Shown here in pieces: positions 16,178 through 23,248 of a stretch of DNA of 64,000 bases. Within the stretch, counting starts at the first letter, position 1, and every line of letters begins with the position of its first letter. Location of the stretch: the NCBI GenBank assembly GCA_029210625.1, contig JARGFU010000005.1, forward strand, positions 124,001-188,000, in the 5' to 3' direction. The notes beneath the pieces are model-generated. The model saw nothing but the letters and a program-made list of their open reading frames with translations. It made no database searches and was not told the DNA's origin. A program made the translations under genes and the position numbers. This DNA is from Deltaproteobacteria bacterium. Its GTDB lineage: Bacteria > Myxococcota > Myxococcia > SLRQ01.

Positions 16178-17002
16178 ATGAGCGACAAGAGTCGAGCGCC
16201 GCGGAAGGTAGCGATCGCAGACCACCTCTGGGATGCGTTCGAGCAGATGGCCGAGGAGATGGGCTCCGACCGGGAGGGCCTCATCAACCAGGCGATGTTC
16301 ATGTTCGCCAGGCTGAACGGCTTCCTCTCGGCCGGGGGCGGTGAGGCCCCGGCGAGGGTCGCGGCCCCGGCGGCGGCCCCCGCGCCGGAGCGCGAGCGCC
16401 CCGAGCGCCCCGAGCCCCCCATCCTCGAGGAGGAGGAGGAGGACGACGACGGCCGGGAGGCCCGCCGGCGCGAGGTCGAAGAGCGGGTCCTGGAGACCGC
16501 CGCCAAGCTCGAGCGTGACATCAAGGGCAAGAACCGCCCCGAGCCGGAGCCCGAGCCCGAGCCCGAGCCGGAGCCGGAGCCGGAGCCGGAGCCGGAGCCC
16601 GACTCCGAGTTCGACGACCTCGAGGACGAGGAGGGCGAGTTCGAGGAGGAAGAGGACTTCATCGACGACGACGAGATCGACGACGACGAGATCGTCGACG
16701 AGCTCATGGGCGAGGTCAGCCGCAAGAACCTCTACCTGATGTCCGAGGACGGCGAGCTCGACAAGATCGTCAAGGAGCGCTTCCTCATCGGCCGCGGCAA
16801 GCACTGCGACTTCATCATCCAGTCCGGCAAGGTCAGCCGCGAGCACGCGGTCATCGTCCGGGAGGACGACGGCTTCTACATCGAGGACCTCGGCTCCTCG
16901 AACGGCACCTGGCACAACAAGAAGCGGATCAAGCGGCGCAAGATCGAGGACGGGGACGAGTACTACGTCTGCTCCGAGAAGGTGAAGATGGTCATCCGCT
17001 AG
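16178..17002 (+). CDS. FHA-domain protein with ribbon-helix-helix-like N-terminus
   Basis: The 274-residue product has an unusual three-part layout. Residues about 8-48 (KVAIADHLWDAFEQMAEEMG, then SDREGLINQAMF) look like a CopG/Arc ribbon-helix-helix DNA-binding unit. A linker of charged, Pro-rich sequence includes a Glu-Pro dipeptide repeat (about 120-141) and a very acidic stretch (about 142-175). The C-terminal FHA domain (about 185-274) has intact phosphothreonine-binding landmarks: GRGKHCDF, SREH and GSSNGTWHN. It could link phosphothreonine recognition to DNA or to an oligomer scaffold, which is inference. It opens the Tad-like gene group and is followed by a strong hairpin, so it may be partly separate from the downstream genes. 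Start: ATG at 16178 after GAGAGGGAC. Confidence 0.88.
   Translation: MSDKSRAPRKVAIADHLWDAFEQMAEEMGSDREGLINQAMFMFARLNGFLSAGGGEAPARVAAPAAAPAPERERPERPEPPILEEEEEDDDGREARRREVEERVLETAAKLERDIKGKNRPEPEPEPEPEPEPEPEPEPEPDSEFDDLEDEEGEFEEEEDFIDDDEIDDDEIVDELMGEVSRKNLYLMSEDGELDKIVKERFLIGRGKHCDFIIQSGKVSREHAVIVREDDGFYIEDLGSSNGTWHNKKRIKRRKIEDGDEYYVCSEKVKMVIR
16538..16600 (+). repeat. In-frame Pro-Glu dipeptide repeat
   Basis: About ten and a half copies of the hexamer CC(G/C)GAG run in frame inside the FHA gene and encode alternating Pro and Glu. It probably forms a stiff extended linker between the N-terminal unit and the FHA domain. Copy number could vary by slippage. Confidence 0.85.
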
Positions 17003-17021
17003 GTCGGGCGTCAGCCCGACC
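17002..17021. terminator. Hairpin after the RHH-FHA gene
   Basis: GGTCGGGC (17002-17009) and GCCCGACC (17014-17021) form a perfect eight-base-pair stem with a GTCA loop, beginning at the last base of the TAG stop codon. No T-run follows. It could attenuate read-through into the prepilin peptidase gene. Confidence 0.55.
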
Positions 17022-17059
17022 GATGACCTGACACCGCCAGGCGCCCTATAAGGGTAGCC

Positions 17060-21154: not shown

Positions 21155-21169
21155 GCGAGAGGCGAAAGC

Positions 21170-23248
21170 ATGTACGTGCTGGTGGTTCGAGAGGCGGATG
21201 GCAACGAGACCGAGTACGACCTCGGGGGCGAGGTCATCCTCGGTCGCGACGAGAGCGCAGACATCCGGCTGGGCGACGGCAGCGTCTCCCGGCAGCACGC
21301 CCGGCTCTTCATGGAGGACGGGCTCTGCTACCTGGAGGATCTCGGCTCCTCCAACGGCACCTCGATCGCCGGGCGGCCGGTGGTGGGCGCCGTGGTCCTC
21401 GAGCCGGGCCAGGAGGCCCAGCTGGGCTCCTTCGTGATCTACATCGAGGATCCCGACGCCCCGTCGGGGGGTCACCAGGAGGACTTCCCCGCCACGGTGG
21501 CCGGCGCGCCGGCCCTCGACTCCCAGGGGACCTTCTCCGGGCCCCCGCCGGCGGCGCCCGAGGGGGCGCCCCAGCTCGAGGGCCTCGGCGGCGTGGCCTA
21601 CGGCCAGACCTGGGATCTCTCCACCCGCAACTCCGTGGGGCGGGTCGAGGGCAACACCATCGTCCTGGCCGATCCCTCCATCTCGCGGCAGCACGCCGAG
21701 GTGGTGCTGCGGGGCGCCTCGATCGTCGTGCGCGATCTGGGCTCGTCGAACGGCACCTTCGTCAACGACCAGCCCATCTCGGGGCCCCAGGAGGTCTTCG
21801 AGGGCGACATCGTCCGCTTCGGTGACGTCGAGCTGCAGGTGAAGGCCGGCGAGATGGCGATGCCCCTGGCCGCGGCCGCCGACGGCGCGCCGCCGCCTCC
21901 GATCCGCCCCGGCGCGCGCCGGAGCGCGCGTAGGGGCTCGGGGGGAGGCTCGGGCGGAGGCGGCAAGAAGAAGCTGCTCCTGGTGGGCGCCACCGTGGTG
22001 GTCGCGATCATCGCCGTGGCGGCCGTCCTCAAGCCCAAGCCGCCGCCGCCCAAGCCGGCGGGGAACGACGCGGGAGCGGGCGGTGGCGCCGCCGTCCAGA
22101 AGAGCGTCGCCGAGGAGGGCTACCGCCTGATGCGGCAGTGCCGCGCCCAGGCCGAGGCCCAGGAGTGGGCGACCGCCGAGAAGCTCTGCCAGCAGGTGGT
22201 CGAGCTCGATCCGATCAACAAGGAGGCCCGGGACAAGCTGCGCCAGATCCAGCTCGACAAGAAGATGGCCCAGAAGTTCCGGGACGCGAAGTCCAAGAAG
22301 GACCTCGGCGACCTGCGCATCGCCCTGGAGATCTTCGTCGAGATCGACAAGCAGTCCTACTACTACGGGCAGGCCCAGTACGAGGTGTCCCTCCTGGTGA
22401 AGGACATCATCAAGAAGGCCGCCGGCGACTGCCTCGGCAACTACCGGGCGCGGCGCTACAAGGACGCCGTGGACAGCTGCCGCCTCCACGAGAACTTCGC
22501 CTGCCAGTGCCCCTCCGAGTACGACAGCACTCAGGTGAGGCGCTACCTGGTCGACTCCGAGCGGGCCACCAAGGTGCCCGTCGAGAAGCGTTGGAAGTGC
22601 CCGGTCGAGTACGCCCAGTGGGTGCCCTGCTCGGCGGCGCCGGTGGGGGACTGCGCCGAGGCGGCCACCAAGCGCTACACCGACGATCAGGTCAAGGAGG
22701 CCATGTCCGAGTACTGCCAGGGCTCGGCCCTCAAGGGGATGAAGATCCTCAAGAAGATCACCGACAAGTACTCCCACCCCAGCCGCGACCAGGCGGTGGA
22801 CATCTCCACCAGCATGCAGGTCGTCGAGGGCAAGTGGAAGGAGGGCCAGGCGCTGATCCTCAAGGGCGATCCCGAGGAGGCCGAGCGGGTCTGGCAGGTG
22901 ATGCTCACCGCCGACGGCAAGATCGTCCCCGACGGCGCCGACAGCTACTACCGGCGGGAGGCGCGCAAGGGGCTCCACCAGGCCTATCGCGACAAGGGCC
23001 AGATGGAGATGAACATGGAGCGCTACCCCGAGGCCTACGAGTGGGCCCAGAAGGGCATGCGCGTCGGCAAGGGCGATCCGAAGATCAAGGAGCTGCTCTA
23101 CCGCCTCGAGCAGCAGGCGGCGGTGGACATCCGCCGGGCGGCCTCCTGCGGCGAGTTCGCCAAGATCCTCGCCTTCACCCAGTCGGATCCCCCGAGCGCC
23201 ACCCACAAGCAGGCGCAGCAGGAGATGGAGCGGCGCGGCTGCCGCTAG
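21170..23248 (+). CDS. Double-FHA, single-pass membrane, TPR-like protein
   Basis: The 692-residue product has two consecutive FHA domains: residues about 1-95 (GRDESADIRL, SRQH, GSSNGTSI) and about 140-230 (GRVEGNTIVL, SRQH, GSSNGTFVN), both with intact phosphothreonine-binding motifs. A Gly-rich basic linker precedes one membrane helix (about 266-287), followed by a Pro/Lys stretch and a long helical, TPR-like C-terminal region with several Cys (residues about 310-692). With the FHA domains in the cytoplasm, the C-terminal part would lie in the periplasm. It starts 15 bases after the CpaF gene and is surely in the same operon. It is probably a structural or signalling part of the Tad-like machine, with its FHA domains reading phosphothreonine; this is inference. 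Confidence 0.88.
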   Translation: MYVLVVREADGNETEYDLGGEVILGRDESADIRLGDGSVSRQHARLFMEDGLCYLEDLGSSNGTSIAGRPVVGAVVLEPGQEAQLGSFVIYIEDPDAPSGGHQEDFPATVAGAPALDSQGTFSGPPPAAPEGAPQLEGLGGVAYGQTWDLSTRNSVGRVEGNTIVLADPSISRQHAEVVLRGASIVVRDLGSSNGTFVNDQPISGPQEVFEGDIVRFGDVELQVKAGEMAMPLAAAADGAPPPPIRPGARRSARRGSGGGSGGGGKKKLLLVGATVVVAIIAVAAVLKPKPPPPKPAGNDAGAGGGAAVQKSVAEEGYRLMRQCRAQAEAQEWATAEKLCQQVVELDPINKEARDKLRQIQLDKKMAQKFRDAKSKKDLGDLRIALEIFVEIDKQSYYYGQAQYEVSLLVKDIIKKAAGDCLGNYRARRYKDAVDSCRLHENFACQCPSEYDSTQVRRYLVDSERATKVPVEKRWKCPVEYAQWVPCSAAPVGDCAEAATKRYTDDQVKEAMSEYCQGSALKGMKILKKITDKYSHPSRDQAVDISTSMQVVEGKWKEGQALILKGDPEEAERVWQVMLTADGKIVPDGADSYYRREARKGLHQAYRDKGQMEMNMERYPEAYEWAQKGMRVGKGDPKIKELLYRLEQQAAVDIRRAASCGEFAKILAFTQSDPPSATHKQAQQEMERRGCR

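Follow-up and report, generated by a model that had tools for sequence, protein, structure and literature searches.

The Kil system of Myxococcus xanthus, a split Tad-type pilus of contact-dependent prey killing, is encoded in two clusters, MXAN_3102-3108 (cluster I) and MXAN_4648-4661 (cluster II) (PMC8460266, PMC12075869). According to these two papers, the core kil genes and KilD are required for killing (PMC8460266, PMC12075869), the system has a single ATPase, and two predicted lipoproteins are mentioned for it (PMC8460266). Over-representation of FHA domains, the fusion of one of them to KilF and a possible signalling cascade were published for M. xanthus in 2021 (PMC8460266). Assembly of Kil and killing are independent of T3SS*, a type III secretion apparatus, which is needed for lysis (PMC12075869). 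Here we describe a locus of five genes at positions 16178-23248 of a window of 64,000 nucleotides, the whole stretch of DNA that was analysed (C5:124001-188000), which very probably represents cluster I of a Kil system. The source genome (6.1 Mb, 64 contigs, 98% complete) belongs to the class of Myxococcus and to another family, and the locus is a well-supported addition to the Kil family in a Myxococcota family outside that of Myxococcus. The richness in FHA domains, which was the main point of an earlier note on this DNA, has been known since 2021; what is new is the reading of KilD as a membrane-spanning protein and the survey result that Kil occurs in genomes with no FHIPEP match. The conserved cassette narrows the question of how prey contact triggers the machine.

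The cassette, its second cluster and Myxococcus xanthus Kil

The five open reading frames (ORFs) were confirmed, all on the + strand and separated by gaps of a few to tens of bases. The first (16178..17002) encodes a protein of 274 residues, named here RHH-FHA for its ribbon-helix-helix (RHH) label and its FHA domain (Pfam FHA, E 1.2e-18), and M. xanthus has a gene in the same place. It is followed by KilA, a short A24 prepilin peptidase of 203 residues (17060..17671, +; Pfam Peptidase_A24, 2e-12), and by KilC, a short secretin of 497 residues (17675..19168, +; Pfam Secretin, 2.3e-42), which also matches the Pfam pilus N-terminal domain T2SS-T3SS_pil_N and BON and aligns over residues 27-497 with M. 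xanthus KilC. In Kil systems the secretin is short and has no N0 domain. KilF (19382..21154, +) is a CpaF/TadA-type ATPase of 590 residues with an N-terminal FHA domain, both parts being recognised in one protein (Pfam T2SSE, 1.6e-62; FHA, 7e-16), although it scored 327 bits against the TadA family model, below the cut-off of 373. Its ORF is open from a GTG at 19211, and the ATG at 19382, which gives 590 residues, is the more likely start. The last gene encodes a KilD homologue of 692 residues (21170..23248, +), composed of FHA1, FHA2 (two stretches matched by Pfam FHA, 2.5e-37), a single hydrophobic helix and a helical, TPR-like domain. Pfam agrees with the grouping of prepilin peptidase, secretin and CpaF ATPase with four FHA domains that the earlier note had read from the sequence, including the fusion to the ATPase and the double-FHA membrane TPR protein.

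That note had also pointed to the Kil system as a relative, to be checked by gene order, and the comparison bore this out. In M. xanthus AM003 (locus L132), the strain used for comparison, with MXAN locus tags taken from the Kil papers, the order RHH-FHA, KilA, KilC, KilF, KilD is identical, and polA lies downstream of the cassette as it does in the window. The identities are 49.5% for RHH-FHA, 34% for KilA (187 columns), 63% for KilC, 67.6% for KilF and 27% for KilD (748 columns). Besides the gene order, the two loci share the FHA-fused KilF, the short secretin and a KilD with two FHA domains. They differ in that KilD is only 27% identical and that, on the right flank of the window cassette, an mlaC-like gene of reverse orientation separates kilD from the DNA polymerase I gene.

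As a partial module, the locus had been expected to need a second cluster, and this was found on contig C7. A T2SSF search gave six matches in four proteins of the genome; two of these are double-domain proteins, on C3 and C19, and the sole TadB/TadC pair is on C7. The gene order of the C7 cluster follows that of M. xanthus cluster II, with identities of 59% for KilB, 66% for KilG and 66% for KilH. The C7 cluster includes a CpaB above the NCBIfam cut-off, an FHA protein that also has a hydrophobic segment, a Flp-like pilin and TadE/TadG-like proteins. A separate cluster II with this content is likewise a feature of M. xanthus Kil. The Flp-like pilin was recognised by eye and by a 38% match to M. 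xanthus, and is unlisted by the Pfam Flp search. Three C7 genes match three genes of M. xanthus cluster II at 33, 30 and 28% and are Tip-like minor pilins.

The absence of pilin, CpaB and TadB/TadC genes from the locus itself, as stated in that note, agrees with the searches made. The TadB/TadC and TadE models had no match anywhere on the window contig, C5. The Flp model had none there either, a weak negative given that the same search missed the pilin of C7, and CpaB was absent from the nine genes checked, namely the five of the cassette and two neighbours on each side. The genome-wide search for pilin genes that had been proposed gave, beside the TadB/TadC pair, a KilP candidate at C1:161943, with 51% identity (E 4.9e-18) to an ORF of M. 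xanthus AM003 and a score below the Flp_Fap cut-off. Started at its GTG, the M. xanthus ORF is 97 residues long and carries Ala at position 96, in keeping with the published KilP, a protein of 97 residues for which an A96C variant is described (PMC12075869). A further TadE/TadG-like set lies at C1:420-425 kb, and another TadE match on C4.

Three secretins were found in the genome: KilC, one on C3 that adjoins T2SSE/T2SSF matches, and one on C19 about 20 kb from another T2SSE/T2SSF group; the latter two are presumably GspD and PilQ. C7 has none of the ten genome-wide T2SSE matches, and the ordinary Tad arrangement of CpaF beside TadB/TadC was not found. No complete Tad cluster with a CpaF of its own was found: the sole TadB/TadC pair is without one, and a lone CpaF-like ATPase lies on C16. 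Among those examined, KilF is the sole FHA-fused CpaF-type ATPase. The C16 ATPase scores 352 bits to the ATPase domain of KilF, and a DoxX/MauE-like membrane gene, noticed by eye, is near it.

The canonical Tad/Cpa pilus, as laid out in Caulobacter and Aggregatibacter, has the same families (CpaA, CpaB, CpaC, CpaF, TadB/TadC and Flp). The present system differs from it in the split into two clusters, the FHA domain on the ATPase, the extra FHA proteins and a CpaF that is not beside TadB/TadC. These relations bear on the alternative of a plain adhesive Tad pilus, split by coincidence, that kills no prey. We know of no killing assay in the lineage of the window genome, the components do belong to Tad families, and the small-genome, host-associated members of the group (L112-L114) keep KilA, KilC, KilF and KilD. 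Nevertheless, this alternative is highly unlikely: the division into two clusters is preserved as in M. xanthus, so are the FHA domain on the ATPase, KilD and a KilP-like pilin, and the core genes and KilD are those needed for killing in M. xanthus (PMC8460266, PMC12075869).

Several observations weigh against assignment to Kil. The second CpaF-like ATPase (C16:104112-104915), with no FHA domain detected and away from any TadB/TadC, does not sit easily with a system of one ATPase. The M. xanthus AM003 cassette is preceded by two genes read by eye as lipoprotein-like, whereas the left flank of the window cassette consists of two acyl-CoA ligases; a search of the genome with one of the two M. 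xanthus lipoproteins, run with no positive control, gave no match. The lipoproteins are not known to be among the parts that define a Kil system. One FHA protein was seen behind KilH here, compared with two in M. xanthus. Moreover, prey killing by the source organism would be a reading from genes by analogy. Even so, five-gene cassette, cluster II, KilP-like pilin and Tip-like minor pilins are all present in the genome, together with a type III apparatus without a secretin on its own contig.

This apparatus is on C27 and comprises FHIPEP (SctV-like), FlhB/SctU, FliR/SctT, FliP/SctR and a FliMN_C protein (SctQ-like). Its SctR scored 224.8 against a cut-off of 179 for the non-flagellar NCBIfam subfamily, and 205.8, just below the cut-off of 208.6, for the SctR equivalog. 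None of the three secretins of the genome is on C27. In its gene families, the apparatus is similar to the needleless T3SS* known from M. xanthus, a type that has an export apparatus and a sorting platform but no secretin.

FHA domains and the topology of KilD

To follow the FHA domains in relatives, 80 of 118 confirmed relatives from a scan of named genomes were kept as loci, and gene content was surveyed in these 80, in 11 others and in the window. Seven of the 91 non-window loci are duplicates (L062, L064-L067, L069 and L070), leaving 82 distinct rows of 89 for KilF, 47 of 50 for RHH-FHA and 66 of 73 for KilD. Of the 80 named loci, 77 have KilF, in every case with one FHA domain; the three loci without it (L137, L140 and L144) are on contigs that stop some 0.2 to 1.2 kb past KilC. 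RHH-FHA is present in 43 of the 80, and elsewhere the contig ends too early or the gene is seemingly absent. As these counts indicate, FHA partners are kept across relatives, which answers the concern in the earlier note that homologues might lack them.

An FHA domain binds phosphothreonine through a well-established set of residues, and in the FHA domain of KilF (19436..19657, +) the G, R, S, H, N and G of this site are complete. All six residues are kept in every row of KilF (89/89, 82 distinct) and of RHH-FHA (50/50, 47 distinct). Control by threonine phosphorylation would fit these intact sites, and with sites invariant in the sample, the phospho-signal is directly addressable by single-residue changes in KilF and RHH-FHA. 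A point on the other side is that the residues of the KilD domains are less fixed, Ser being kept in 75/77 (FHA1) and 74/77 (FHA2) and Asn in 71/77 (FHA1) and 73/77 (FHA2).

KilD is termed cytoplasmic in both Kil papers (PMC8460266, PMC12075869). The sequences and the structural model examined here suggest instead that it is likely a single-pass inner-membrane protein, with the FHA pair inside and the TPR-like domain outside. Hydropathy was computed for rows with two FHA matches and at least 420 residues, with L061, L101, L111 and L128 (<420 residues) excluded and ORFs with fewer than two FHA matches (e.g. L063 and L110) outside the count. A hydrophobic segment behind the FHA pair was found in 73 of the 73 rows (66 distinct), M. 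xanthus among them. The most hydrophobic stretch of 19 residues after FHA2 had a mean Kyte-Doolittle value of at least 1.75 in every row, compared with a maximum of 1.56 anywhere in KilF and of 1.26 in the linker between FHA1 and FHA2. In the window, the predicted membrane helix comprises residues 267-286 (21968..22027, +), and the cysteine-rich helical domain read as periplasmic lies at 22106..23248 (+). Cysteines number 3.3 per 1000 residues before the segment and 21.8 after it, a rise of about 6.7-fold, and the flanks of the segment are more positive before than after it in 52 of the 73 rows and equal in nine. In the AlphaFold model of KilD (mean per-residue confidence, pLDDT, of 84.9), residues 267-286 stand as a lone helix, and the segments flanking it score below pLDDT 50.

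In the 64 distinct rows used for cysteine columns, from which those under 500 residues were left out, cysteines 324/340 were both present in 47 rows and single in none, 421/437 in 54 and none, 660/691 in 53 and one, and 445/477 in 54 and five. In the model, 324/340 and 421/437 are in neighbouring helices. Covariation of these cysteines was rejected as independent evidence, since changes on the tree are few and some unpaired columns co-occur equally: 421 with 445 gave 58 rows with both and none with a single one, among 71 rows.

The other reading of KilD, as a soluble cytoplasmic scaffold whose hydrophobic stretch is a buried helix, agrees with the published wording, and the functional N-terminal fluorescent fusions of KilD are compatible with either topology. 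Violation of the positive-inside rule by the flanks in 12 of the 73 rows also speaks for it. Further points weaken the case for a membrane span: cysteines are missing beyond the segment in three rows (two distinct; L135 and L141), the pLDDT of the membrane helix is just 40-64 per block of 10 residues, and the paired cysteines changed one to four times per position on the tree, too few to test. We nonetheless consider a soluble KilD unlikely, in view of the long hydrophobic stretch that every row has after FHA2 and ahead of the helical domain, the lone helix between low-confidence segments and the rise in cysteine density beyond it. No report of a membrane-spanning KilD, nor of a ribbon-helix-helix domain in the RHH-FHA protein of Kil, was found in the accessible literature, which includes few subscription papers and preprints.

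The first fold matches of the KilD FHA domains were Chlamydia CT664 (3gqs), which we take to be the SctD homologue of that organism, and Bdellovibrio DgcB; the Pfam family Yop-YscD_cpl also matches KilD. KilD, read as membrane-spanning, resembles the SctD/YscD inner-membrane ring proteins in having an N-terminal FHA-like domain, one membrane helix and a periplasmic domain. It differs in having two FHA domains that bear a phosphothreonine site and in its TPR-like outer part, the outer part of SctD being made of ring-building modules.

Taken together, these features allow a mechanism to be proposed. Prey contact would lead to phosphorylation, on threonine, of at least one protein associated with Kil, and the phospho-signal would be read by the FHA domains of RHH-FHA, KilF, KilD and the cluster II FHA protein. 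The ATPase KilF would be gathered under the KilG/KilH platform, and the KilP pilus extruded through KilC. KilD, with both FHA domains facing the cytoplasm and a TPR domain closed by disulfide bonds in the periplasm, could connect the phospho-signal with assembly in the envelope. The fuller proposal, for which we see about even chances, is that KilD is a receptor-like coupler of the inner membrane with a disulfide-locked TPR domain outside, that at the core of Kil an SctD-like element connects kinase signalling to the envelope, and that an RHH-FHA dimer and FHA-KilF read the same signal. If KilD spans the membrane, the phospho-signal gains a route into the envelope and the existing KilD fusion data read differently.

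Two relatives show unusual KilD genes. In L061 (genome G119, about 4879-7115), KilD is represented by two overlapping ORFs, one of 346 residues with both FHA domains and one of 534 residues with the C-terminal part, from a frameshift or a sequencing error. In L063 (G162), the cassette is in a single-contig genome of 4.35 Mb, with a KilD-like ORF of 334 residues without FHA, and RHH-FHA was not seen at this locus.

The RHH-FHA protein and the region upstream

RHH-FHA consists of a CopG-like N-terminus (about 16202-16327, +), an acidic linker and a C-terminal FHA domain (about 16763-16960, +). None of the RHH models in Pfam matched the N-terminus, even at E 10. However, a profile of 11 such N-termini placed CopG, a ribbon-helix-helix repressor, at the top of 177,635 PDB sequences (E 0.0014), and because CopG is the best PDB match, the RHH label of the earlier note stands. 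The AlphaFold model is of low confidence (mean pLDDT 60.9; predicted template modelling score 0.33), with two helices where an RHH fold would have them (residues 15-28 and 32-46) and no strand called ahead of them. In a fold search with the protein, the best 50 of 238 matches could all be recognised as FHA proteins from their titles or from what they are known to contain, and PHROGs gave one weak family of unknown function, over residues 110-150 in the acidic linker. The protein would presumably be a cytoplasmic dimer. Its FHA domain is conserved well past the phosphate site, which suggests, as far as conservation can tell, one fixed partner.

A possible role for RHH-FHA is that of a phospho-controlled transcription factor that co-regulates both kil clusters. 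In line with this, CopG is its top PDB match, it leads the cassette, in some relatives a promoter-like element lies upstream, and co-expression of the M. xanthus kil clusters is published (PMC8460266). The putative DNA-facing strand does not speak clearly for such a role: in the register of the profile match, Lys takes the place of CopG residue 6 in 39 of 50 sequences, but the place of residue 8, which would likewise face DNA, varies among G, A, S, Q, L and T. Conservation of the N-terminus is also strongest in the helices. In addition, 8-mer counting upstream of the cassettes, with the cluster II promoters outside the search, found no shared operator, just a promoter-like block. On balance, we regard a regulatory role of this kind as doubtful.

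The block in question resembles CTCTGCTATCGTC and was found upstream of RHH-FHA in Myxococcus relatives, its 8-mers being shared by as many as 14 of the 49 upstream stretches, a count made with no shuffled control. It resembles an extended -10 promoter and is seen, for example, in L132 (M. xanthus AM003) shortly before 8395. In the window, a candidate -10-like element at 16113..16124 (+) was recognised by eye from its weak likeness to CTCTGCTATCGTC of some Myxococcus relatives. These upstream sequences suggest that the cassette may have its own promoter.

Kil genes across the phylum

The secretin was used to survey 195 genomes of the phylum, and KilC was detected at E <= 1e-100 in 132 of them, with none in the 24 genomes of one family of the Myxococcus class. 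Of these 132 genomes, 111 had an FHIPEP match and 21 had none, and 15 of the 21 are at least 90% complete, drafts being liable to miss genes. As a marker of T3SS*, FHIPEP is unspecific, being common to flagella, and just its absence was used. The survey suggests that in some genomes Kil may occur without any type III export gate, a pattern in agreement with the T3SS*-independent killing of M. xanthus (PMC12075869). Such genomes hint at the member of the killing pair that is able to act alone.

The nearest relative of the window locus is L071, from the metagenome-assembled genome Deltaproteobacteria bacterium CSSed162cmB_222. A rapidly built KilF tree, with long branches, placed the window beside L071 within Myxococcota. 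The small-genome Myxococcaceae L112 and L113 (2.3-2.7 Mb), perhaps from termite gut to judge by isolate names, retain the Kil cassette and an FHIPEP match, and L114, recorded as from sheep colon, retains the cassette, with no RHH-FHA seen. The KilH match of G144, the genome of L113 by contig coordinates, contains two stop codons. A Kil-like cassette with an FHA-KilF and a double-FHA protein was found in L149, labelled uncultured Candidatus Hydrogenedens, as a result of transfer, contamination or mislabelling. The record Comamonas sp. KCTC 72670 (L086) is probably mislabelled, its Kil locus grouping with Myxococcus in the KilF tree.

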